Source: Syntrophaceae bacterium (GTDB taxonomy: Bacteria > Desulfobacterota > Syntrophia > Syntrophales > UBA2185). Taken from it: DNA of 50,911 bases. Positions 1-46,764 of the stretch are shown here, one piece after another. Within the stretch, counting starts at the first letter, position 1. Every line of letters begins with the position of its first letter. The DNA lies in contig PMBI01000009.1 in the NCBI GenBank assembly GCA_003153775.1, positions 1 to 50,911 of the forward strand, read 5' to 3'. The notes beneath the pieces were generated by a model that did not search any database, was not told the DNA's origin, and saw nothing but the letters and a program-made list of their open reading frames with translations. The position numbers were made by a program, and so were the translations under genes.

Positions 1-254
1 GCATGAGCGCCACGGGCAATTGCTATGATAACGCTGTAATGGAATCGTTTTTTCATACCCTCAAAACGGAAGACGTTTATTTTGAAAGATACCGGACCCG
101 GGCAGAAGCCCGGCAGAGCATCTTCGAGTATATTGAAGTCTTTTATAATCGTATCAGGAGGCATTCATCCTTAGGGTATCTCTCGCCTCTTGAATTTAAT
201 GTCCGAATGTCGGATAAAGCAGCTTAACTGTGTGTCCGCTTTTTCGGGGGAACA
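1..254 (+). mobile_element. Right end of an IS3-family insertion sequence
   Basis: The window opens inside an insertion sequence. The transposase C-terminus (to 227) is followed within 30 bases by a terminal inverted repeat which, read inward from 254, begins TGTTCCCCCGAAAAAGCGGA. This has the TG start and C-run typical of IS3-family ends. The left end lies outside the window. The element is inserted into the minus-strand DUF2971 gene that begins at 414, whose reading frame runs into the IS end. The exact target duplication cannot be read because only one end is visible. Confidence 0.8.
3..227 (+). CDS. IS3-family transposase OrfB, C-terminal 74 residues (5' end outside window)
   Basis: This is the end of a DDE integrase-core transposase. 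The motif [19 protein letters not shown] is the signature around the third catalytic acidic residue: the Glu of MESFF is the E of DDE. It is followed by the [18 protein letters not shown] block that ends nearly all IS3 OrfB proteins. The protein would catalyse copy-paste transposition via an IS circle. Only the C-terminal part is present because the window starts inside the gene; the first in-frame ATG at 3 is not the true start. Whether the complete element is active cannot be judged. Confidence 0.93.
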
Positions 255-414
255 TCATTATTCCTTTTGCATACCTAATTTCAGATAAATCATTCGTATA
301 TCTAAAATCAGTTGCCCACAAACATTGACTGTCCAATATACCCATCAATCCTTTTACATTCGTATAATGATATAAAATTTTATCTTCCACTTCTCCACTT
401 ACGGAATTTAACAT
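255..414 (-). pseudogene. DUF2971 protein, N-terminal fragment cut by the IS
   Basis: From the ATG at 414 the minus strand encodes about 53 residues matching the start of DUF2971 proteins, with the sequence LYHYTNVKGLMGILDSQCLW then ATDFRYTNDLSEI. This is the typical (Y)HYT...GI...LW.....NDPxE-like opening of that family. After residue 53-54 the frame enters the IS inverted repeat and ends about 18 residues later, so the rest of the gene is lost or lies beyond the IS. DUF2971 proteins have no established activity and are often found in accessory or defence regions (family knowledge). The gene is dead or truncated here. Confidence 0.8.
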
Positions 415-424
415 TTTAGCACCT

Positions 425-559
425 TTAAATTTTTTCTACCTTTGATTCATCAAACTTAATCACCTTTCCAGTATCTTCATATATACTTCTCAAATCATCC
501 GATTCCATAACAAAGTATTGTTCAAATGCTTTATCCCCACCATACAGGCTCAATATTTT
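425..559 (-). pseudogene. Remnant or small ORF of unknown family, upstream of the DUF2971 gene
   Basis: An open stretch of 44 codons ends at a TAA only 10 bases before the DUF2971 start. Its tail reads MESDDLRSIYEDTGKVIKF and then DESKVEKI. The first in-frame ATG is at 508, giving a possible 27-residue ORF. Further upstream, the residues LLYSNQELGEK appear in another frame up to about 597, which suggests a frameshifted remnant of a longer gene. The block at 464-508 matches 6357-6401 at 39 of 45 bases and encodes the same MExDDLRSIYxDTGK core. I do not recognise the family. Confidence 0.45.
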
Positions 560-659: not shown

Positions 660-2654
660 TTAGGGCCTTCTTACAAAGATGAAATCCCCGCCTTCATCTC
701 CCGCTTCGCTGATTGCCCCGTAGAGGGGGGTCTGATGGCTGGGGCTGTTGTTTATCACCGCCTCCCTGAGGCTCGCAAAAAGCTTCTGCGTGTCCATGTA
801 TGGCTCTTTGTTATCCTTGAGCCTCTTGATAAGATACTCGAGAAACACACTGCGATCCGGAACGGTCTTCATGGCACCGCTGGTAATGGCTTTTCTGCTG
901 GGCAGTTCATAAATCTTTTCCATGGAGACCTTTTGCTTGTAGAAGGCCTCCCTCGTCTTGAAAATCCCTCCGCTGAAACAGGAATCGGCAACAAGGAGCA
1001 CGTGCTTTGCCTTTATTGCCTTTATGTAATCGCGGACGGTGCTGTTCGGAATCCAGTCTGCGGGATCGTTAATGCCCGAAGCATCTCTCGGAAGCCAGAA
1101 CCCCTGCTTCATATCGTCCAGCCAGTATCCGTGACCCGCATAGAAAATCAGCAGATTATCCCTTTCGGTCAGCTTGCTTCTTAAGGACTGCAAGGTCTTG
1201 TATATAGTCCTCCTGTCAGGATCCACAAGAGTGATAACATTCTCCCTATCAAACGTATATCGTGATACAAGAATGTCTCCCAACCCCTGCGCGTCGGAAA
1301 TGGCAAAGTCCAGTTTGCCGATCTCCCCGCTGTCATAATCCTGTACCGCGATTAACAGCGCAAAATATTTTGCAGAAGCAAGTTCCGCATGAACCGGACC
1401 TTCCTCCGCCCTCGTCGCTGCTATGTGTCCGGCTTCGCGGTTCACGGCAAATTGTTTGGTTGACTTGTTCTCAAGTACATCGATAGCCATAACTGTAACG
1501 GTGTTCTGACCGACTTTCAGAGGAATGACCGTGGAAAAACGGCCTTGCTCGTCCAGCTCCGCATCCTGGCCATTGACCGAAACATCCATGATGCCCGCCT
1601 TGCTTTCGGCGATTCCTGTAACGGTAATGTTCATCCGCTTCGCAACAACCGACACGGCCCGTGTTGTATCCGGTGCTGTGATCGTGATCTTCGGAGGCGC
1701 AATCTCCGCTTTTGCCGAGGCGGTCTTGCTCACTTCGCGATTCACGGCGAATTGTGTCGTCGACTTGTTCTTGAATACATCGATGGCTGTTACGGTAATC
1801 TTGTTTTGACCGACCTTAAGAGGAACGGCTGAAGAAAAACGACCCTTCTCACCGAGCTCCGCCTGCTGGCCATTGACCAGAACATCCATGATACCCGCAT
1901 TGCTCTCGGCTAATCCTGTAATGGTGATGTATGTCCTTTTCGCCGCAATAGACACGGTGCGTGAGATGTCCGGCGTAGTGATTGTAATCTTTGGTGATGT
2001 CTTTTCCAACACATCCGGCTTAGAAAGCTCAGGTGCTGTGCTTATGACTTTTCGGGATGTCTCTTCTGATTTAGCCGACTTTGCAGGTTCTATTGCTCTG
2101 GGAGGTGCTGTAGCTATACTGGCACTCTCTATTTGCTGAGGCTTTTCTTTGCGAGCAGGTGCTGAGGCAACCGCCGTCATGCCTTTATATCCCATGGTAT
2201 TCCATTGCCGGAGTGAATATACCGCGTCGAGAAATAACCGCGCATCGTCTTCAGATTTCCAGTATAGTGAATAAAAAGGGTGACCAAAACGAACAGTAAA
2301 AATATTTCCCTCTTTTTCAATGTACGGGTTTAGGTCACCATATGCTTTGTAGACTGTTACCCACAGTCCTCTCGTATCTTTCGCCATATTTATACGGAAA
2401 AGATTCCCTTCATGGGTGACCCCGGCTACCGTAACACTTTTTTGCATCAGGGTAAGGGAAAGCTCAACGGCATCCCGTGCTTCCTTTTCCCCCATCTTGG
2501 GAGGTGAATCGGGATTAACGCGATAAACGACCGGAACGCATCCTGCTATGAGGATTGCAGCAAAAAGACAGACGAGAATCAATGAAATTTTCATTCTTGA
2601 GAAAAATGATATCCGGCAGGAACTACCAATGATGACGCAGAATTTAGGCTTCAT
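660..2654 (-). CDS. Caspase-like (peptidase C14) lipoprotein with two Big-like repeats
   Basis: Envelope-anchored caspase-fold protein. The ATG at 2654 is preferred because GGAGGTGA lies about 8 bases upstream; another ATG at 2594 starts directly at the signal sequence. A lipobox (LIAG|C) follows a hydrophobic stretch, so a lipidated, periplasm-facing protein is predicted. Next come an N-terminal domain of about 120 residues, a Pro/Ala/Lys-rich linker, two near-identical 87-residue beta-sandwich repeats with a 100-residue period (glucodextranase-B/Big-like, motif AGIMDVxVNGQ), and a C-terminal caspase domain. The catalytic His lies in FYAGHGY and the Cys in ADSCFSGG (H508 and C559 from this start), so the site looks intact. 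It is co-oriented with the CHAT gene upstream. The substrate is unknown. Confidence 0.88.
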   Translation of the reverse strand: MKPKFCVIIGSSCRISFFSRMKISLILVCLFAAILIAGCVPVVYRVNPDSPPKMGEKEARDAVELSLTLMQKSVTVAGVTHEGNLFRINMAKDTRGLWVTVYKAYGDLNPYIEKEGNIFTVRFGHPFYSLYWKSEDDARLFLDAVYSLRQWNTMGYKGMTAVASAPARKEKPQQIESASIATAPPRAIEPAKSAKSEETSRKVISTAPELSKPDVLEKTSPKITITTPDISRTVSIAAKRTYITITGLAESNAGIMDVLVNGQQAELGEKGRFSSAVPLKVGQNKITVTAIDVFKNKSTTQFAVNREVSKTASAKAEIAPPKITITAPDTTRAVSVVAKRMNITVTGIAESKAGIMDVSVNGQDAELDEQGRFSTVIPLKVGQNTVTVMAIDVLENKSTKQFAVNREAGHIAATRAEEGPVHAELASAKYFALLIAVQDYDSGEIGKLDFAISDAQGLGDILVSRYTFDRENVITLVDPDRRTIYKTLQSLRSKLTERDNLLIFYAGHGYWLDDMKQGFWLPRDASGINDPADWIPNSTVRDYIKAIKAKHVLLVADSCFSGGIFKTREAFYKQKVSMEKIYELPSRKAITSGAMKTVPDRSVFLEYLIKRLKDNKEPYMDTQKLFASLREAVINNSPSHQTPLYGAISEAGDEGGDFIFVRRP
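1437..1997 (-). repeat. Tandem 261-bp domain repeats inside the caspase gene
   Basis: Two copies (1737-1997 and 1437-1697, period 300 bp) encode the Big-like domains. Each begins with PKITIT(T/A)PD and ends with STxQFAVNRE. The copies differ by scattered substitutions, which points to an intragenic duplication that is not very recent. Confidence 0.8.
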
Positions 2655-2727
2655 TATTGAAATCACCTCCAGTGACTTAATAACAGCGCATTTTCGCGGC
2701 ATTCAAGAGCGGAACTTGTTCTGCATA

Positions 2728-2757
2728 CTTATACGATTACGGCATAATAAATGACAA
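2728..2757 (-). promoter_or_regulatory. Predicted sigma70 promoter of the caspase gene
   Basis: Read on the minus strand: TTGTCA (2757-2752), an 18-base spacer, then TATAAG (2733-2728). Each box has five of six consensus bases. It lies about 75 bases upstream of the preferred caspase start at 2654 and downstream of the duplicated dehydrogenase tail, so the caspase gene may be transcribed separately from the CHAT gene. Confidence 0.5.
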
Positions 2758-2807
2758 CCCCGTTGAAATCAAGGGAAATATGGCCAGTATAAATGCAAGA
2801 GAGGCCA

Positions 2808-2907
2808 TCACGAAATTGTTTCGAGGTCATGAAAAACGGCGGCGCCAAGTTTCTCCTTTTTCGTGTCGAATATCCTTGTGCTCTTGCACCGCGCCTCTTT
2901 TGCTTCT
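2808..2907 (-). repeat. Duplicated 3' end of the acyl-CoA dehydrogenase gene (copy B)
   Basis: These 100 bases match 6416-6515, the 3' end of the complete dehydrogenase gene, at 90 of 100 positions in direct orientation, 3,608 bp away. The coding frame and stop survive: the remnant ends KEKLGAAVFHDLETIS and stop, against KEKLGAAVFHDLETIP in the intact gene. Most differences are silent C/T changes, so the copy diverged while still coding or came from a related genome. Homology fades above 2907. The remnant begins 31 bases after the CHAT stop codon. Confidence 0.9.
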
Positions 2908-2938
2908 TGTTGCCGTATTTTGAGTCGTCGGCAATGAA

Positions 2939-5900
2939 TCAAGGACCAGGATCACCCATCAGGACAAAAGACGCCCAGAAGAGGGGATGGGCATAGCTGG
3001 CGATGATTTTACCTGTGGTCTGTTCCTGCAGATTCTCGCTATCGATCAGGTTCAACATGGATTTCCTCAGCGCCTGCGAGCGAGTTAATTTATTGTCGCT
3101 GACCTCGAGTTCGAAAAGCCTCGTGATCAACTTTTTGGCCGATGTTGTTTCCACGGGATACATAGTAGCCAGGATTGCCCGGCTGCCGGCATAGAAAAAG
3201 GCCTGACCGAGTCCCGAAAGGGCTTCCGCGCCGGCGCCGCTCGCTGCTCCCGTGTTGCACGCCGAAAGAACGATCCAGTCGGCATTCATCTTCAACTTCA
3301 TGATTTCCGTCATCGTCAGCAACCCATCATCCTTATCTCCTGTGACAGAAGGCGAGGACAGTGCCAGCGCCGGCTGATCCAAACCATCAACGTCACCGGG
3401 AACCAGGGCATGAGTAGCAAAGGCAATGACCTTCCGGTCAGACAGGGTCATTGTCTTAATCCGGTGTTCGGAAGCTTGCTCCCGTAAAAAAACATCTTTG
3501 GCCAGATCGGCATTCAACACGCGGGCAATTGTTTTGATCTCCTCTGCCGTGTCAGGCAAACGGTTCAGGTTTTCAGTCTGAATCGAGGTGATCTTCTGAT
3601 TATCAAGGGCCCCTTTTGCGGTGACACGGATACCCCTGACCTGAACACGGCCTGCCGTTACGTTATCAGCAGAACCACCTTCTTCTGTCTTCAGCAACGC
3701 CAGTTGTTCCCGGTTAAAGAGAGGATCGCCGAATCCGAGAAATGCCTTGCGTCCAGGATCACCGGGCGGCAGCGTCCTCAGATTAACGAGCGCCGATACG
3801 GAAGGCTCCATGGTAATGGAATACTTGCGGATCAACCAGGGCGCCTGCCGGTAACGGGAAAACAGTTCTCCGCGTTCGCCGGCAAGTTGAAATGGAGTTG
3901 TCGGCAAAATAGCGAAGGGAATCTGATCAAGGGGGCTGTTGGCAATAATGAATAGGTCTGTGGCATCCTTCAATGCGGACTCCACCGGGGAAAATAACTT
4001 TGTATAAAGATCATGCGCAAGAGAGACATCAAAATCGGGGATATCTCCCAGCGTCTCCGGCTTGGGGTCAAGCGATTTTCTCAGTCCAGCCACAACGGGA
4101 ATGAGACCGTCTCGGCCTATCGCAGCTGTGGCAAATCTTGCGTTTCCTTTAGGCGGAATGGCCCAGACAAAGGTTTGATCTTTCGTTGTGTAAAGGGACA
4201 GGAGAACTTCCCCAGGCCGCAGGAAACCCTGGATGTAAGGAATGGCGCGCGGTGATGGATTGACAAAATCAGCATATTGGGGGAAGCGTTTCTTTGTCTC
4301 TTTCAAAATGGAGTCCCGGGCGCGGCGCAGATTTTCAACATCGCTTCTAAGTTTCTGGATGGCCTTTGGATCATGTTGACCGGCCGGCGCTGCCATAAGA
4401 TCAAGGATTGAGTTTTCCATTGCAAGTATCTGCCTGTCTGCATCCTGCTCTTTTCGGATCATGTCCGCAAGTTCCGGATCTGTTACCGCGGCGCGGGCGC
4501 TGCTTGCCACAAGGGCGCCCTGCACGCTCCGGCTTCGATTCGCTTCCGCCAGTTTGAATGCAGTCGCCGTCGCGTCGATCCTCAGTTCCTTCTCGATGGA
4601 GGTACCCTGAATCTTTGCAAGCAATCCGACATAGTCATCGATAATCACCCGCCGCAGTTTCTTGCGGCGGGAAAAATCACCTTTTTCTGTCCGATGTTCC
4701 ATAAGGACATCTGTCGCCGCGGAAAGATCCTGAACGGCTTCACGAACATGATTCAACCGTTCCCGGGCCATGCCCCGGAGCGCAAGCATCTCCGCCGTGT
4801 TTTCATGCTTTTCGCCGAAACGCTTCCGAAGGTTATCATAATTTTGCGATGCGAGGTTCCATGCATTTTCATGGCGGCCCGTCATAAGCATGGATAAAAC
4901 CATGGCGGGATCCTGTATGAATGACCTTTCATAGAGGAACTTATTCTCCTTCATGCCGGTTCTGGCCAGATCGTACTGAGACATGGCGCCTACGAAGTCT
5001 CCCGTCGCCGCCAGGATGTCTCCTTTTGTAACCCTGGCAAAGCCCATAGGTTGGGAATCGGCAGGAATACCGGCAGCCTCAAGAATGCGGATGGCGGCAT
5101 CGGACAGTTTTCCTGCTTCTTCCAAGCGCCCTTGCGCCTGTAAAATGCGGGTAAGCACTATAATTGCTTGACCCGTCAGCGCCGATTCTTTTCCAGCATG
5201 CGCCAATGACTCCATCAGTGCCTTTCTGGCCTCTACTTCCGACTCCATCAGTCGCTGCTGATTCAGTAAGTTTCGTGCGTGCATCATATCCACAGATATA
5301 TAAGATAAAGGATATTTTTCGAGGAACACCCGACCAGGCCCTGATCCGAGATTCTTTATGTTTTGATACCAGGTTTCAGCCCCGGCATAGTTCCCCTGCG
5401 CCTCCAAAATGCGTGCATTGATGAGTGCCAGATGCAGGTTACAAAAGTACAGATTTTGCGAATCTAATTTGCTACTGCGACAAGTCATCTCAGCTGCCTC
5501 TTTAGCGCTTTTCGCGGCATCAATGTCGCCGATTGCAGCATAGAGATTAACGAGTGCCCGGTTAGCATTAACGCGGCCAGATGAAGTACCGGTTGCGAAT
5601 CTGACAAAAGCATACTCTGAGCTTTCTTTAGTCAGTTCAATCGCCTTTTGAAAATTTCCATAAATGCTTTCTATATTGCCGAGACGGCCCTTGATAAGTC
5701 CATCGGATTTGTCCTTAATCCCATAAGCCAAAGCCCTCTGCAGATCGTCTCTGGCTTGCACATAGCGGCCCAACTGAAAGGCAGCCTCTCCTCTGTCCCT
5801 GTAAAATCCTTTCAATATCCTTGTATCTTTTGTGTCCGGCGGGGTTGCATCGGCCTGGGCCCTGAAATTTTCCGTGACCTTGGATTCAAATTGACCGGGC

Positions 5901-6085
5901 TGATCCAGAACTGACAGTATGTCGTCAATTCTGCGGGGAGGCGGGGTGAAGGCCGGCGATTCCGCCATCGAGATGGAAACCTTTTTCGCTTCCTCCAAGG
6001 ACATTTTTGTTGTGCAGCCCTGAAAGAAGATCAGTGTCAGAAGGGCAAAAATGAAAAAGCTCACCTCATTTTTGCTTTTAGTCAT
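2939..6085 (-). CDS. TPR-CHAT protease lipoprotein
   Basis: Large clan-CD protease-like protein of 1,048 residues. The start at 6085 is chosen for the AGGGGGGAT element about 7 bases upstream. The N-terminus is a lipoprotein signal (hydrophobic run, then FFQG|C), so an outer-envelope lipoprotein is predicted. Residues ~90-480 contain TPR-like helical repeats, ~540-610 a likely coiled coil, and ~620-1048 a CHAT domain. Putative catalytic His is in AFATHALVPGD (H892) and Cys in VLSACNTGA (C943). The C-terminal AHPLFWASFVLMGDPG is the classic CHAT ending. CHAT proteins are caspase relatives used in TPR-linked proteolytic switches (family knowledge). It lies between two copies of a dehydrogenase 3' end and beside a caspase lipoprotein, which suggests an acquired two-protease module. 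Confidence 0.9.
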   Translation of the reverse strand: MTKSKNEVSFFIFALLTLIFFQGCTTKMSLEEAKKVSISMAESPAFTPPPRRIDDILSVLDQPGQFESKVTENFRAQADATPPDTKDTRILKGFYRDRGEAAFQLGRYVQARDDLQRALAYGIKDKSDGLIKGRLGNIESIYGNFQKAIELTKESSEYAFVRFATGTSSGRVNANRALVNLYAAIGDIDAAKSAKEAAEMTCRSSKLDSQNLYFCNLHLALINARILEAQGNYAGAETWYQNIKNLGSGPGRVFLEKYPLSYISVDMMHARNLLNQQRLMESEVEARKALMESLAHAGKESALTGQAIIVLTRILQAQGRLEEAGKLSDAAIRILEAAGIPADSQPMGFARVTKGDILAATGDFVGAMSQYDLARTGMKENKFLYERSFIQDPAMVLSMLMTGRHENAWNLASQNYDNLRKRFGEKHENTAEMLALRGMARERLNHVREAVQDLSAATDVLMEHRTEKGDFSRRKKLRRVIIDDYVGLLAKIQGTSIEKELRIDATATAFKLAEANRSRSVQGALVASSARAAVTDPELADMIRKEQDADRQILAMENSILDLMAAPAGQHDPKAIQKLRSDVENLRRARDSILKETKKRFPQYADFVNPSPRAIPYIQGFLRPGEVLLSLYTTKDQTFVWAIPPKGNARFATAAIGRDGLIPVVAGLRKSLDPKPETLGDIPDFDVSLAHDLYTKLFSPVESALKDATDLFIIANSPLDQIPFAILPTTPFQLAGERGELFSRYRQAPWLIRKYSITMEPSVSALVNLRTLPPGDPGRKAFLGFGDPLFNREQLALLKTEEGGSADNVTAGRVQVRGIRVTAKGALDNQKITSIQTENLNRLPDTAEEIKTIARVLNADLAKDVFLREQASEHRIKTMTLSDRKVIAFATHALVPGDVDGLDQPALALSSPSVTGDKDDGLLTMTEIMKLKMNADWIVLSACNTGAASGAGAEALSGLGQAFFYAGSRAILATMYPVETTSAKKLITRLFELEVSDNKLTRSQALRKSMLNLIDSENLQEQTTGKIIASYAHPLFWASFVLMGDPGP

Positions 6086-6332
6086 TTGTGATCCCCCTAT
6101 CATATTTATTGATCTTTGCCTTGAGAAATTCCTTTGGCTTGCTCAATCGTTATGGACTTTATCACATTTTAAATTGAAGTTCCGCTTTAATATACTATGC
6201 ATTATTGCAGAGTATTTTCCGGTGGAACGTATTTTGTTTATTTACAATTGAAATCTTATATCGGCGAGCGAAATCGCAGGAAACACGACAGAGAGTATTT
6301 CTTTATGACACTACTGTCAAGTTCTTTGGATT
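6086..6332. other. AT-rich spacer upstream of the CHAT gene
   Basis: About 250 AT-rich bases without a credible gene on either strand. It should hold the CHAT promoter, but I could not find a convincing -35/-10 pair. The base composition contrasts with the GC-richer flanking genes, in keeping with acquired DNA. Confidence 0.4.
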
Positions 6333-6419
6333 CTATATTGATCTAATATTAATCAGCTTACCCGTATCTTGATATATGCTCCTCAAATCATCCGCTTCCA
6401 TATCCACTTTTATAGTCAT
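6333..6419 (-). CDS. Possible 28-residue small ORF overlapping the dehydrogenase stop
   Basis: The minus strand reads ATGA at the dehydrogenase stop and stays open for 28 codons, including MEADDLRSIYQDTGKLI. The last 45 bases of coding similarity (6357-6401) match 464-508 at 39 of 45 bases, and the shared peptide MExDDLRSIYxDTGK is conserved. This could be a translationally coupled small protein, or the stump of a longer gene cut when the CHAT block arrived. I do not recognise it. Confidence 0.35.
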   Translation of the reverse strand: MTIKVDMEADDLRSIYQDTGKLINIRSI

Positions 6420-8074
6420 GGAATTGTTTCGAGGTCGTGAAAAACGGCGGCGCCCAGTTTTTCTTTTTTCGTGTCGAATATTCTTGTGTTTTTGCATCGC
6501 GCCTCTTTTGCTTCTGCGAGGAAGTATCTCAGGAGATTGAGGTCGCCGCTCTTGGGGACGCCCGATTTTATATCCCTTGAAATCTTCGCTAACACGGAGA
6601 GGATGCCGAATGCATAAAGGCTGAGCGTGGTCATACGTCTCAGGAAGAATTGCCTCTCCACCACCTTCGCTCCATGGAGGACGGTCCCCAAAAGCAGCAT
6701 GCGTTTGATCGTCCGTGCATTGGCCTTGACCAGTCTCACTGCCTCCTGCGTGGTTTCGTCGTCGCCATCTACACGCCAGGGCATCGCCGCAAAGCTGGAA
6801 AAGAAGGCCTTTATAACGAAAGACCAGCGGGAGAAACCCTTGTGTGAGCGGAGCTCTTTATTCAGACGTCCGAGGAGGAAGAGCATGGGATAGGTGGAAT
6901 GGATTTCCGTCGTCCCCTCGAATATGGGAACAACGCGGAAATCGCGCATCCGTTTTTCATAGGGCTGGGTCGTGATATAGCCGGCGCCGCCTGCCACCTG
7001 CATGGCATCGTAGAGGACGTCCCACGCACGCGTGGAACCGTAAAGCTTGCAGTGCGATGTTTCGATCACCGGGTCTTCCGTCGGCTGGGATTCGAGGAGA
7101 TTTGCAGTGAAATAGTTAATGCAGGATGTGACGAATCCGTGAACGCGGGCATTGATTATTTTCTCCTGCACGAGAGGAAAATTCCGGATGGGGACGCCGA
7201 ACTGCATTCTGGCGCCGGCGCGCTTGAGCATGTCCTTCAAGGATACGTCTATGAGACCGGCGCCTGCGGCGCCGAGGGCGAGTCTCCCGTAGTTGAGGAT
7301 GGCGAGTGCGATCTTGTAGCCTTCTCCAGGTTTCCCCAGCATATTTTCCACCGGGACGTGAACATTCTGAAATTGAATGGTAGCTGTAGAGCTGGCCCTG
7401 ATGCCCATCTTGGGCATGTCCTTCCCGATCTTGACTCCTTCCCACGCGGTCTCCACGATGAAGGCGCCCATAAACCCGGGATGCGCCGGGTCCATCTGGG
7501 CAAAGGCGGTGAGGCCTTGCGCGTAGTTTGCGTTGGTGATGTAGGTCTTCGTACCGTTGAGGACGTAATATTTTCCATCCGCGGAGAGTTCTGCCTTCGT
7601 CTCGATGTGTCTCGCATCGGAGCCGAAATTAGGTTCCGTGAGGGCGTAAGAAAATATCATCTCTCCCGATGCAGCGAGCGGAAGATATTGGCGCTTCTGC
7701 TTCTCGGTTCCGTATAGCTCAATGCCTTTGATGCCGATGAAGAGATGGGCAAGAAAAACAACTGCGGAGGCCAGGTCCTGGGCCGAGATCTCTTCTACGA
7801 AGCGGATGCAATCGACAAGGCCGACGCCCAAGCCGCCGTAGGTTTCAGGAAGGCTGATCCCGAAGAAGCCCTTCTTTCTCATCTCCTGCAGCATCTCATG
7901 GGGAATGCGCCCTTCCTCTTCAATCTTCTGCGGGGAATGGTTTTTAAACATCTCCCGGTAGGATATGAGCAGGGACTGAACCTTTTCAGAATCTGCCGGC
8001 ATGCGGTAAGAATCAAAGGCCGTTTTATCAAAGACGCCTTCCAATATCTTCTCCATGAAGCTGCCTGATGCCAT
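6416..8074 (-). CDS. Acyl-CoA dehydrogenase, long form with C-terminal extension
   Basis: FAD-dependent alpha,beta-dehydrogenation of an acyl-CoA, passing electrons to an electron-transfer flavoprotein. At 552 residues it is about 170 longer than the common dehydrogenases, like the very-long-chain type with an extra helical C-terminal domain. Visible signatures are YALTEPNFGSDA (flavin/substrate region), MGIRASSTATIQF, LHGAK-type helices in the extension, and the catalytic base Glu386 in PIFEGTTEIH. A GAGGAGA ribosome site lies about 7 bases before the ATG at 8074. The last 33 codons are duplicated at 2808-2907. The chain-length substrate cannot be told from the sequence. Confidence 0.92.
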   Translation of the reverse strand: MASGSFMEKILEGVFDKTAFDSYRMPADSEKVQSLLISYREMFKNHSPQKIEEEGRIPHEMLQEMRKKGFFGISLPETYGGLGVGLVDCIRFVEEISAQDLASAVVFLAHLFIGIKGIELYGTEKQKRQYLPLAASGEMIFSYALTEPNFGSDARHIETKAELSADGKYYVLNGTKTYITNANYAQGLTAFAQMDPAHPGFMGAFIVETAWEGVKIGKDMPKMGIRASSTATIQFQNVHVPVENMLGKPGEGYKIALAILNYGRLALGAAGAGLIDVSLKDMLKRAGARMQFGVPIRNFPLVQEKIINARVHGFVTSCINYFTANLLESQPTEDPVIETSHCKLYGSTRAWDVLYDAMQVAGGAGYITTQPYEKRMRDFRVVPIFEGTTEIHSTYPMLFLLGRLNKELRSHKGFSRWSFVIKAFFSSFAAMPWRVDGDDETTQEAVRLVKANARTIKRMLLLGTVLHGAKVVERQFFLRRMTTLSLYAFGILSVLAKISRDIKSGVPKSGDLNLLRYFLAEAKEARCKNTRIFDTKKEKLGAAVFHDLETIP

Positions 8075-42713: not shown

Positions 42714-44675
42714 ATGCAATTAGAGAAATTGCACCTCTTAGAAAAGAAAGCCTTGAACCTCCGCAAAGAGTATTTCATCATCTTCCTCCTGATCGCGACG
42801 ACGGCAATCAGTTATTGGCAGCTAAAAAATAATGACTTTATCAATTTAGATGACCCGCAGTACATAACCGAGAATCTCCGGGTAAAAGCGGGACTCACTG
42901 TGGAAAGCGTGAAGTGGGCATTTGCTTCCACGCAGGCTCATAACTGGCACCCTTTAACATGGCTTTCCCATATGCTGGATGTTCAGCTATTCGGTTTGAA
43001 CGCCGGTTGGCATCATGTAACCAATCTTATCTTACACCTTGCAAATACCATCCTGCTCTTTCTTGTATTTTACAGGATGACGAAGGGCCTCTGGCAGAGC
43101 GCCTTGGTGGCGGCGCTGTTCGCTCTGCACCCCCTCCATGTGGAATCCGTAGCCTGGGCATCCGAAAGAAAGGATGTCCTCTCCGCCCTGTTCTGGATAC
43201 TCACAATCGGGGCTTATTCCTATTATACCGAGCGTCGTGCTCTCTGGCGCTATTTGCTTACTCTTTTATTTTTCACACTGGGTATCATGTCAAAACCGAT
43301 GGTTGTGACACTCCCTTTCGTTCTCATCCTCATGGATTACTGGCCCCTTGGTCGCTTTCAATTACCAAGCCCGAAATTGGCCGATCAAGAAAAATCCACA
43401 AAGCCGGCCAAGCGAAAGCGCAAAGGCAAAAAGATCTCCAAGAGCGAAATAATTGAGACGTCGCAAAAACAGAGAACGACGGAACCAACTAATTTATGGT
43501 CGCGCCTGGCGGAGCTTGTACGTGAAAAAATTCCTTTTTTTATTGTGTCGGCAATCTCATGTGTCATCACGGTTGTTGCTCAAAAAGACGCCATATATTC
43601 TGTGAGTGAACTGCCTCTCGGCTACAGGGTCTCAAATGCCATCGTGTCTTATGCCCATTACCTGATCAAGATGATTTTGCCGGTCAATCTGTCGGTCTTT
43701 TACCTTCAGTTGGGACAGACACCGGCATGGCAGGTCTTTGCGGCTGTGGTGCTTCTCATATTTGTAACTATTCCTGTAATCATCACAACAAGAAAATATA
43801 AATACCTTGCCGTGGGATGGTTCTGGTATTTGGGAACCCTGTTCCCCGTTATCGGCATCATGCAGGTAGGAGACCAATCCATGGCGGACCGATACACCTA
43901 TATTCCACTCATCGGAATCTTTATTATGATTGCCTGGGGTATTGGTGCTCTTTCAAACGGGTGGAGGAATCAAAAATTGATTCTCGGAGTCATCTCAGGA
44001 ATGACACTTGCTGCCTTCTCATTCGGAACATGGACGGAAGTCAGGCATTGGCAGAACAGTGAGACACTCTTTACGCAAGCGCTCGCGGCTGATGCAAAAA
44101 ATCCCAGAGCACATTCACTCCTGGCAAAGGCTCTTTCACAGAAGGATCATATAGATGAAGCAATTCAACATTATGAAGAAGCCCTGCGCATACATCCTCA
44201 TACACATGATTCCGAATTTCACAAAGATTTCGGGCGGCTTCTCGCGGCAAAAGGAGATATGGGCGCGGCGGCTTCTCATTTTCGGATTGCCTTGCAGATT
44301 AATCCTCATGACACACAGGCGCGTGAATTTCTCGAAATGAACACGGCCATAAGGGGAATTAGCACGGATGCCGTAGCATATTACCGAAAGGCCCTGCAGA
44401 CCAATCCCTCGAATCCATATGCACATTACCTGTTGGGAGAAGCCTTAGCCAAACATGGTCAATCTGAAGAGGCTCTGGCACACTTGAAAGAAGCTCTAAG
44501 GATCAAACCAGATATAGTTGAGGCCCACAATGGCATAGGAATTATTCTGGCCTCGAAAGGAAGACTGTCGGAGGCTATCGGTCACTTCAGTGAGGCTCTA
44601 AAAATAAAGCCTGATTTTACAGAAGCGAGCAATAACCTGAGAGTCGCATTGGCACAACAGAAGATGCGTCATTGA
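42714..44675 (+). CDS. GT-C-like membrane protein with C-terminal TPRs (TMTC-type), copy 1
   Basis: 653 residues. About ten membrane segments (residues ~20-450) are interrupted by a Lys-rich cytosolic loop (~220-255), followed by TPRs (~465-650). The first extracytoplasmic loop has FINLDDPQYITEN; the Asp pair D46-D47 is the likely catalytic motif of GT-C enzymes that use polyprenyl-linked sugars. HNWHPLTWLSHMLD and ALHPLHVESVAWASERKDVL are hallmarks of TMTC-like proteins, O-mannosyltransferases in animals. A role in protein or lipid glycosylation is inferred. It forms a tandem pair with the next gene. Confidence 0.85.
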   Translation: MQLEKLHLLEKKALNLRKEYFIIFLLIATTAISYWQLKNNDFINLDDPQYITENLRVKAGLTVESVKWAFASTQAHNWHPLTWLSHMLDVQLFGLNAGWHHVTNLILHLANTILLFLVFYRMTKGLWQSALVAALFALHPLHVESVAWASERKDVLSALFWILTIGAYSYYTERRALWRYLLTLLFFTLGIMSKPMVVTLPFVLILMDYWPLGRFQLPSPKLADQEKSTKPAKRKRKGKKISKSEIIETSQKQRTTEPTNLWSRLAELVREKIPFFIVSAISCVITVVAQKDAIYSVSELPLGYRVSNAIVSYAHYLIKMILPVNLSVFYLQLGQTPAWQVFAAVVLLIFVTIPVIITTRKYKYLAVGWFWYLGTLFPVIGIMQVGDQSMADRYTYIPLIGIFIMIAWGIGALSNGWRNQKLILGVISGMTLAAFSFGTWTEVRHWQNSETLFTQALAADAKNPRAHSLLAKALSQKDHIDEAIQHYEEALRIHPHTHDSEFHKDFGRLLAAKGDMGAAASHFRIALQINPHDTQAREFLEMNTAIRGISTDAVAYYRKALQTNPSNPYAHYLLGEALAKHGQSEEALAHLKEALRIKPDIVEAHNGIGIILASKGRLSEAIGHFSEALKIKPDFTEASNNLRVALAQQKMRH

Positions 44676-44841: not shown

Positions 44842-46764
44842 ATGTCTCAAGAAGAACCATACTATCGTCGCCAGTTACTGATCTGTCTTTTTCTCACGGT
44901 GGCAGTGCTTGCTGCCTTCTGGCAGGTTAATCGTTGCGATTTCATTAATTATGACGATGAAGACTACATCACAGAGAACAGTCATATTAAGAATGGTATT
45001 ACGACAGAGGGCATCCGATGGGCATTCACGACCAGTCACGCTGCAAACTGGCACCCCCTGACCTGGCTTTCCCATATGCTGGACTGTCGGCTCTTTGGTT
45101 TAAAACCGGGACTGCATCACCTAATGAACGTTTTCTTTCATATAGGCAATACGCTGTTATTATTTCTCATCCTCAATCGAATGACCCACGCACTCTGGCA
45201 GAGCGCCTTTGTGGCTGCTTTATTCGCACTTCACCCTCTCCACGTAGAGTCTGTCGCCTGGGTTGCCGAGCGCAAAGACGTACTCTCGACTTTCTTCTGG
45301 ATGCTCACAACGGGAGCATATATCTTTTATGTTGAACGTCCGGTACTTCAAAGATATCTGCCTGTTCTGATATTTTTTGCTTTAGGACTGATGGCTAAAC
45401 CCATGCTGGTAACTCTTCCTTTTGTCCTCCTCCTTCTCGACTATTGGCCTCTGCAGCGATTCCAGCAGAAAAGATCGCCTAAGGAGATCCAAGCGGACTC
45501 GCGTGGACCTGTGTCTGTGGTTAAGCAAAAAGGAGCTGCGAAGAAGAAGCACGCAGAAAAGTCAGAGGAGAAAGCAGAAAAACCTGTAGATTCCAAGTAT
45601 CGGTGGACATTGATTCGTCCCCTGCTCTGGGAAAAAATCCCCCTCTTTGCCTTGACGGCGCTCTCATGCATCGTAACATACGTTGTCCAGCAGAAGGGCG
45701 GCGCAGTGGCATCCATTGAGGCATTCCCCCTGAGTGACCGTCTTGCGAATGCCTTCGTTTCCTTTGTCGTCTACATCAGAAAAATGATGTGGCCAAGTGA
45801 TCTTGCCATCTTTTATCCTCATGCGGGGCTATTGCCCTCCTGGCAAGTCATAGGCGCGGTCTTGCTCCTCCTCTCCCTAACCATAGCCGTCATCCGGGCG
45901 GCAAGGGAAATCCCTTATCTGGCCGTGGGGTGGCTATGGTATGTGGGTACACTCATACCCGTCATCGGTATTGTGCAAGTCGGCGCACAGGCGCGGGCGG
46001 ACCGCTATACCTATGTCCCCCTGATCGGGTTGTTCATGATAGCGGCCTGGGGCATTCCCGAGCTCTTGAAAAAATGGCGCTACCGGAAAGAGGTGCTTTT
46101 TGCGTCCTCTGCCATCATCCTTCTATGTTGTTTCACGGTGACATGGGCACAGGTCGGGTACTGGCGAAATAGCGTGACTTTGTTTGATCATGCCTTGAAG
46201 GTTACTGATCGTAATACGCGTGCGTATATCAACCTGGCTGCCGCCTACAACGACCTGGGCAATTACAGGAAAACGATAGAGGCCTGTGACGAAGCCATCA
46301 GGCTCGATGCAAGATTTGAGAAGGCCTATTATGATCGAGGTCTTGCTTACAGCAGGCTAGGGAACTACAGGCAGGCGATCGATGATTACGACAGAGCCAT
46401 AGAGTTAAACCCGAAATATACAAAGGCCTACAATAACCGTGGCATCGCCAATGACATTCTTGGCAACCACAAACAGGCGATAGACGACCTTGATAGGGCT
46501 ATCGGGCTGAACCCAAAATATGCGGAAGCCTATTACAACCGGGGTATTGCGTATGGCAGACTTGGCACCTACAAACAGGCCCTTGGAGACTTTGACAGAG
46601 CCATCGGGCTGAACCCAAAATATGCGGAGGCCTATTACAACCGAGCGGCCTCTTATTACAGCCTCGGTAACCAAAGGCAGGCATTTGAAGATATGAAGAC
46701 AGCGGCACGATTCGGCGACGAAGATGCAAAGAACTTTTTGAGAAGCCAGGGGATGAGCTGGTAG
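44842..46764 (+). CDS. GT-C-like membrane protein with C-terminal TPRs (TMTC-type), copy 2
   Basis: 640 residues, clearly paralogous to the preceding gene: FINYDDEDYITEN (D38-D39), AANWHPLTWLSHMLD, FALHPLHVESVAWVAERKDV. The basic loop lies at ~210-250, and ~460-630 holds five TPRs. The last TPRs are almost identical in DNA (102-base period; see repeat). AAGGAAA lies 9 bases before the ATG. Roles as for copy 1: probable polyprenyl-sugar glycosyltransferase with a TPR docking domain. Confidence 0.86.
   Translation: MSQEEPYYRRQLLICLFLTVAVLAAFWQVNRCDFINYDDEDYITENSHIKNGITTEGIRWAFTTSHAANWHPLTWLSHMLDCRLFGLKPGLHHLMNVFFHIGNTLLLFLILNRMTHALWQSAFVAALFALHPLHVESVAWVAERKDVLSTFFWMLTTGAYIFYVERPVLQRYLPVLIFFALGLMAKPMLVTLPFVLLLLDYWPLQRFQQKRSPKEIQADSRGPVSVVKQKGAAKKKHAEKSEEKAEKPVDSKYRWTLIRPLLWEKIPLFALTALSCIVTYVVQQKGGAVASIEAFPLSDRLANAFVSFVVYIRKMMWPSDLAIFYPHAGLLPSWQVIGAVLLLLSLTIAVIRAAREIPYLAVGWLWYVGTLIPVIGIVQVGAQARADRYTYVPLIGLFMIAAWGIPELLKKWRYRKEVLFASSAIILLCCFTVTWAQVGYWRNSVTLFDHALKVTDRNTRAYINLAAAYNDLGNYRKTIEACDEAIRLDARFEKAYYDRGLAYSRLGNYRQAIDDYDRAIELNPKYTKAYNNRGIANDILGNHKQAIDDLDRAIGLNPKYAEAYYNRGIAYGRLGTYKQALGDFDRAIGLNPKYAEAYYNRAASYYSLGNQRQAFEDMKTAARFGDEDAKNFLRSQGMSW
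46396..46640 (+). repeat. Near-identical 102-base TPR-coding repeats
   Basis: The blocks around 46399, 46501 and 46603 are spaced 102 bases apart, one 34-residue TPR. The copies at 46501 and 46603 share GGGCTGAACCCAAAATATGC and continue almost unchanged. This suggests recent unit duplication, with scope for copy-number change. Confidence 0.8.

Follow-up and report, generated by a model that had tools for sequence, protein, structure and literature searches.

Proteases with CHAT or caspase domains, both clan-CD cysteine proteases, are well described in conflict systems (PMC7159879, PMC10907252) and have mostly been discussed as cytoplasmic effectors. For TPR-CHAT proteins, the closest described counterparts are Csx29, the protease of type III-E CRISPR systems (Craspase); separase (peptidase family C50); DdvA, an envelope-linked regulator whose inactivating signal is not known (PMC4374960); and HetF of Anabaena, a divisome component with CHAT and TPR domains (PMC8406250). 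For caspases, they are the prokaryotic metacaspases and orthocaspases (C14), which are frequent in Deltaproteobacteria, where multi-metacaspase operons were described in 2012 together with the probable export of some metacaspases as forms with an N-terminal signal or transmembrane segment (PMC3501461), and the EACC1-associated caspases (PMC7159879; NCBIfam NF047832). The locus compared here with these systems lies in a stretch of 50,911 bases, hereafter the window, which is an entire contig (PMBI01000009.1) of the 3.13 Mb genome assembly GCA_003153775.1 of a Syntrophaceae bacterium (order Syntrophales, phylum Desulfobacterota) whose named relatives by sequence are Syntrophaceae and Syntrophus assemblies. 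Between positions 660 and 6085, two genes on the minus strand encode a caspase-domain and a TPR-CHAT protein, and we consider it fairly likely that both are clan-CD cysteine proteases, lipid-anchored and facing the periplasm, which were acquired separately, came together through insertion at a variable site beside an acyl-CoA dehydrogenase gene and each work alone, not as a fixed pair.

The CHAT gene (open reading frame [ORF] 2939-6103 on the minus strand, best start 6085) encodes, in this order, a signal peptide with the lipid-bearing Cys24 in LIFFQGC, a TPR solenoid (residues ~70-465), a helical linker and a CHAT domain (~689-1045). The CHAT domain (PF12770) is recognised by Pfam at 6.3e-47, with 160.8 bits against a cut-off of 24, and TPR families are matched as well. 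The catalytic dyad, His892 in FATHALVPGD (3410-3412) and Cys943 in LSACNTG (3257-3259), is unchanged in 24 of 24 CHAT homologues, at identities down to ~25%, and the lipid Cys24 is retained in orthologues. A model built from this 24-sequence alignment (mean predicted local distance difference test score, pLDDT, 79.7) resembles Csx29 (Z 25.8) and the separase protease (Z 25.4, root-mean-square deviation 3.2 A over 318 residues) more closely than it does DdvA (Z 19.7 over 644 residues). A search of PDB sequences with the full CHAT alignment was swamped by TPR matches; the CHAT domain alone yielded only a weak match to DdvA (0.036), in which the His and Cys motifs align. The exported CHAT form of this order has the same fold as separase, Csx29 and DdvA, the last an envelope regulator.

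Csx29, the best structural match, has the same combination of a TPR solenoid with a CHAT protease and a His/Cys dyad, whereas the window protein has a lipoprotein signal and a longer TPR part and is only ~10% identical to it in sequence. The NCBIfam model of Csx29 does not match the window protein, and Cas7-11 and Csx30 were not recognised beside the window genes, the search for Cas7-11 being confined to this neighbourhood of the genome. The Csx29 type is cytoplasmic and devoid of an export signal, whereas the lipobox of the window protein is conserved, so that the exported lipoproteins that the earlier note had contrasted with Csx29 are borne out at the sequence level. Separase joins a helical solenoid to a CHAT-like protease in a similar manner, whereas the window protein is bacterial, exported and has no cohesin context. 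DdvA (PDB 8rot, 8rw5) shares the TPR-CHAT body and the aligned His and Cys motifs and provides an earlier example of envelope signalling by a CHAT protein. However, DdvA is a transmembrane anti-sigma factor, whereas the window protein is a lipoprotein with neither a cytoplasmic part nor an adjacent sigma factor: the Pfam scan found no cytoplasmic sigma-binding domain, and the lipoprotein signal leads straight into the TPR part. HetF (PMC8406250) is likewise a membrane-associated CHAT and TPR protein with a non-defence role, but differs in its domain order, its transmembrane segment and its place in cyanobacterial development and division.

The caspase gene (ORF 660-2702 on the minus strand, best start 2594) encodes a signal peptide, MKISLILVCLFAAILIAGC, with the lipid-bearing Cys19, followed by two Big-like Glucodextran_B domains (Pfam, 2.3e-20; ~202-387) and a Peptidase_C14 domain (~412-625; Pfam 6.4e-12, 46.1 bits against a cut-off of 21.4). 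The dyad consists of His488 in FYAGHGY (1131-1133) and Cys539 in ADSCFSGG (978-980), with Asp537 two residues ahead of the catalytic Cys (DSC). The model of the caspase domain (mean pLDDT 67.7) has the fold of MALT1 (Z 16.0) and of plant metacaspase-4 (Z 14.8). The p20-type domain, the His/Cys dyad and the DxC motif are those of prokaryotic metacaspases and orthocaspases (PMC3501461), the difference being the two Glucodextran_B/Big-like domains between the lipid anchor and the caspase domain. The EACC1-associated caspases are similar in the caspase domain, but the window protein scores 68.7 bits with NF047832, under the family cut-off of 140, and an EACC1 gene was not recognised next to it. 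The dyad motifs recur as AGHG and D[SA]CFSG in the orthologues from two relatives, G003 and G008, and as SGHG with DSCYSG in a more distant relative in G007; the lipid Cys19 is retained in orthologues. Compared with the closest relative, G003, the ratio of nonsynonymous to synonymous substitution rates (dN/dS) is 0.10 for the C-terminal and 0.29 for the N-terminal part of the caspase gene, and 0.20 for the CHAT gene, values that place both genes under purifying selection. The two same-strand genes, the lipoboxes and the intact dyads described in the earlier note all stand, and both proteins are conserved and probably active proteases. Orthologues of the window caspase occur in multiple copies, often truncated at contig ends or reduced to remnants (L046, L047 and L050 in G003; L044, L045 and L051 in G008; L048 in G002), which suggests duplication and decay.

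Predicted export is the rule for both protease classes in this order. By a crude signal rule, a lipobox is present in 61 of the 89 full-length CHAT ORFs of the order, compared with 40 of 591 other long ORFs at the same loci, and all 17 caspases (17/17) carry an export signal. Furthermore, in two TPR-CHAT proteins of two relatives, encoded at L052 7844-11794 (minus strand, G005) and L199 6377-9775 (plus strand, G004), an OmpA domain, which binds peptidoglycan, is inserted in the CHAT region. Together, the conserved lipid Cys residues, the order-wide export signals and these OmpA-bearing proteins support a periplasm-facing location, and we infer that both window proteins are lipid-anchored on that side of the membrane. 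The +2 residues, Val and Thr, suggest sorting to the outer membrane if the E. coli rule applies. The main form of CHAT protein in this order, then, is exported and often lipid-anchored. A search of the available literature, mostly without subscription papers, yielded no account of exported CHAT and caspase proteins that occur in pairs, of an order in which the lipid-anchored type of TPR-CHAT protein predominates, or of CHAT-caspase gene clustering in Syntrophales.

The history of the pair can be read from the features at this end of the window:

3..227 (+), 3' end of an IS3-type transposase gene, truncated by the contig edge (Pfam rve_2 7.3e-16, rve_3 1.1e-13)
196..414 (-), gene fragment (Pfam: sub-threshold match to Tox-ART-HYD1 only)
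456..509 (-), 54-nt direct repeat, copy A, on the outer side of the caspase gene (87% identical to 6349-6402)
660..2594 (-), caspase-domain lipoprotein, 644 aa (Pfam, lipobox, caspase-fold model)
2808..2907 (-), orphan duplicate of the 3'-terminal 100 nt of the acyl-CoA dehydrogenase gene, located between the two protease genes (90% identical to 6416-6515)
2939..6085 (-), TPR-CHAT lipoprotein, 1048 aa (Pfam, lipobox, dyad conservation, model)
6349..6402 (-), 54-nt direct repeat, copy B, 13 nt away from the dehydrogenase gene end (repeat search)
6416..8074 (-), acyl-CoA dehydrogenase gene, outside the protease function; the variable segment borders on its 3' end (Pfam Acyl-CoA_dh)

The earlier note had placed the pair, as an acquired function, among debris of insertion sequences (IS) and DUF2971 genes. 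The site is indeed variable and IS-flanked, with the transposase end at 3-227 as the IS remnant, whereas Pfam did not confirm DUF2971 for the fragment at 199-414. The note had overlooked two features, the copy of the dehydrogenase end between the genes and the 54-nt direct repeat outside them. The repeat encloses the whole caspase-CHAT segment, and both duplications have diverged. DNA similarity to G003 spans 2946-6274 on the CHAT side and ends at 2784 on the caspase side. Given the orphan dehydrogenase tail between the two genes, the pair probably arose by insertion at a variable site, and from these borders the genes appear to have become neighbours recently; the simplest history would be two separate insertions at one variable site, united by recombination. 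The dehydrogenase gene itself has a 94% orthologue in G002 and is truncated in G001; at E 1e-60, the six further relatives searched gave no match. A clean empty site is not demonstrable, the G002 contig stopping ~80 nt past the dehydrogenase gene and the G001 gene being the truncated one.

Among the nine genomes of the family that were compared (labels G00x), the CHAT protein has orthologues in G001, G003, G004, G007 and G008, those in G001 and G007 being interrupted, and the caspase in G003 and G008; G002 has a caspase remnant. In none of these relatives are the two orthologues adjacent: a window-type caspase was not found next to the CHAT orthologues, nor a CHAT gene within the flanking DNA examined at the loci of the caspase orthologues. 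A different caspase lies ~1.9 kb from one of the CHAT orthologues (L117/L216). Otherwise, to judge from gene names read from translations, the neighbourhoods of the CHAT orthologues differ: a pilin-like gene occurs with a threonine synthase gene in two of them and an enoyl-CoA-hydratase-like gene in two others, and the remainder have little in common. In L040 10637-15701 (G008) and L041 7484-12375 (G001), the CHAT orthologue lies between the pilin-like and threonine-synthase-like genes; the only other neighbourhood common to CHAT orthologues is that of L069/L072.

These comparisons bear directly on the dedicated cascade proposed in the earlier note, a single extracytoplasmic module in which one lipoprotein protease activates the other. 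The same strand, the 237 nt separating the ORFs, the shared predicted compartment and the lack of a clear terminator between the genes are all compatible with such a module, as are the general enrichment of CHAT-caspase neighbours and an overlapping lipoprotein pair in G036, both described below. However, the specific pair is kept in no relative examined, the orphan dehydrogenase tail is the mark of a recent junction, and relatives that retain CHAT genes often have truncated members of the caspase family. The cascade is thus unsupported and improbable; the window pair is a case of gene shuffling at a variable site and gives no evidence of a cascade, nor did any sign emerge that either protease cleaves the other.

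The co-occurrence above chance that the cascade led one to expect fails for the specific pair but holds for CHAT and caspase neighbours of any kind, which are about four times as frequent as under random placement, the expectation used throughout. Three samples were counted, all excluding the window pair. The 100 genomes from the order contain 5 CHAT-caspase pairs with starts within 6 kb against 1.54 expected; the 108 genomes from the phylum contain 3 pairs at 6 kb or less against 0.48, two of which share a locus; and of 46 CHAT loci outside the order, 3 have a caspase within 3 kb against 0.50. Pooled, these amount to 11 pairs against ~2.55 expected (Poisson P ~7e-5, or 3e-4 with the shared locus counted once), with the provisos that counts are small, distances were picked after seeing the data and assemblies are fragmented. 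A first count, by hidden Markov models in the CHAT flanks within 5 kb, gave 10 against 1.33 expected (9 without the window); the tests based on position only are preferred because the expectation of that count uses genome counts that miss weak caspases. Genome-wide searches do miss weak members, the window caspase included, so that caspase counts are somewhat low. Control pairs in the order are not enriched for caspase-OmpA (0 against 0.91) or CHAT-CHAT (0 against 0.57); CHAT-OmpA pairs number 2 against 0.56, which is not significant. As a further proviso, caspases also cluster with one another (5 against 1.07). The clearest single case, an operon-like pair of the proposed kind, is in G036 (L141 4945-7368 and 7365-9776), where genes for a WD40-caspase and a TPR-CHAT lipoprotein, from other subfamilies, overlap by 4 nt on one strand.

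This enrichment raises the prospect that exported CHAT and caspase proteases serve a common pathway, such as an envelope damage response or lysis, in interchangeable combinations, the two classes clustering without a fixed pair. The excess of neighbours, the combination of different CHAT and caspase subfamilies, the flat caspase-OmpA and CHAT-CHAT controls and the export of the majority of both classes argue for such an arrangement; the CHAT-OmpA excess, pointing to a shared neighbourhood of envelope or accessory genes that may explain part of the signal, argues against it, as do the small counts, the radii set after looking and the low caspase counts. On balance, we regard it as rather unlikely, and a broader version as distinctly so: a periplasmic clan-CD network in Syntrophales and some other Proteobacteria, in which many lipid-anchored, separase-like TPR-CHAT proteins and caspases, in variable neighbouring combinations, jointly carry out programmed lysis or a response to envelope damage. 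Should the neighbour enrichment hold, it would point to a shared extracytoplasmic role that is directly testable, and the clustering of CHAT and caspase genes is the part of this analysis that deserves follow-up.

Defence, the first of the accessory functions named in the earlier note, fares worst. Anti-phage or abortive-infection proteases in a defence island would fit the IS-flanked variable site and the fact that known conflict systems use CHAT and caspase domains as effectors (PMC7159879, PMC10907252). However, PADLOC gives only weak matches (BovA 1.4e-6, caspase 7e-7) and no system, recognised defence genes are absent beside the two genes, those effectors are cytoplasmic whereas the window proteins have envelope export signals, and the CHAT family is present throughout the order at ~50-80% identity; such a role is therefore very improbable. 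A viral origin was also rejected: searched with the CHAT alignment, viral contigs gave no homologue, which likewise speaks against a defence role.

Under the preferred reading of two separately acquired proteases, the TPR solenoid would bind a protein partner, or a segment exposed in the envelope, and present it to the CHAT active site in the manner of separase and Csx29, whereas the caspase domain, raised off the membrane on its two Big-like sandwiches, would cleave a second substrate. By analogy with orthocaspases, Asp537 in the DSC motif suggests a basic P1 specificity. Both proteins would most likely be conditional processing or turnover proteases of envelope proteins, perhaps in envelope stress, lysis or another form of cell death, and both would belong to a set that comprises, across the genome, some nine CHAT and nine caspase genes, which tend to cluster and whose products are mostly exported; the searches of the source genome gave 9 CHAT matches and 8 caspase matches, the latter count excluding the window caspase.

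Several points weigh against this reading. The approximately fourfold clustering of CHAT and caspase genes is left unexplained if the genes are purely independent. The terminator scan found no strong terminator between the two window genes on their strand, which makes their co-transcription possible; overall, the scan of the region for terminators and promoters rose little above shuffled sequences. Several relatives are fragmented assemblies, and three G003 caspase orthologues end at contig borders, which hides some neighbours. Finally, the location and activity of both proteins are predictions.

Other observations concern neighbouring and more distant genes. Farther along the window, at 42714-44675 and 44842-46764, two tandem genes encode membrane proteins that combine a PMT_2-like part with TPRs at the C terminus. 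In the phylum sample, the 4.8 Mb genome G242 has 19 CHAT matches, several of them clustered, and three caspases. The genome of L114 (Candidatus Achromatium palustre) has 41 Peptidase_C14 matches in 3.6 Mb. At L112 4938-16264, ORFs located directly downstream of caspase and CHAT genes resemble by eye, unconfirmed by family search, a type II CRISPR effector and cas1- and cas2-like genes.

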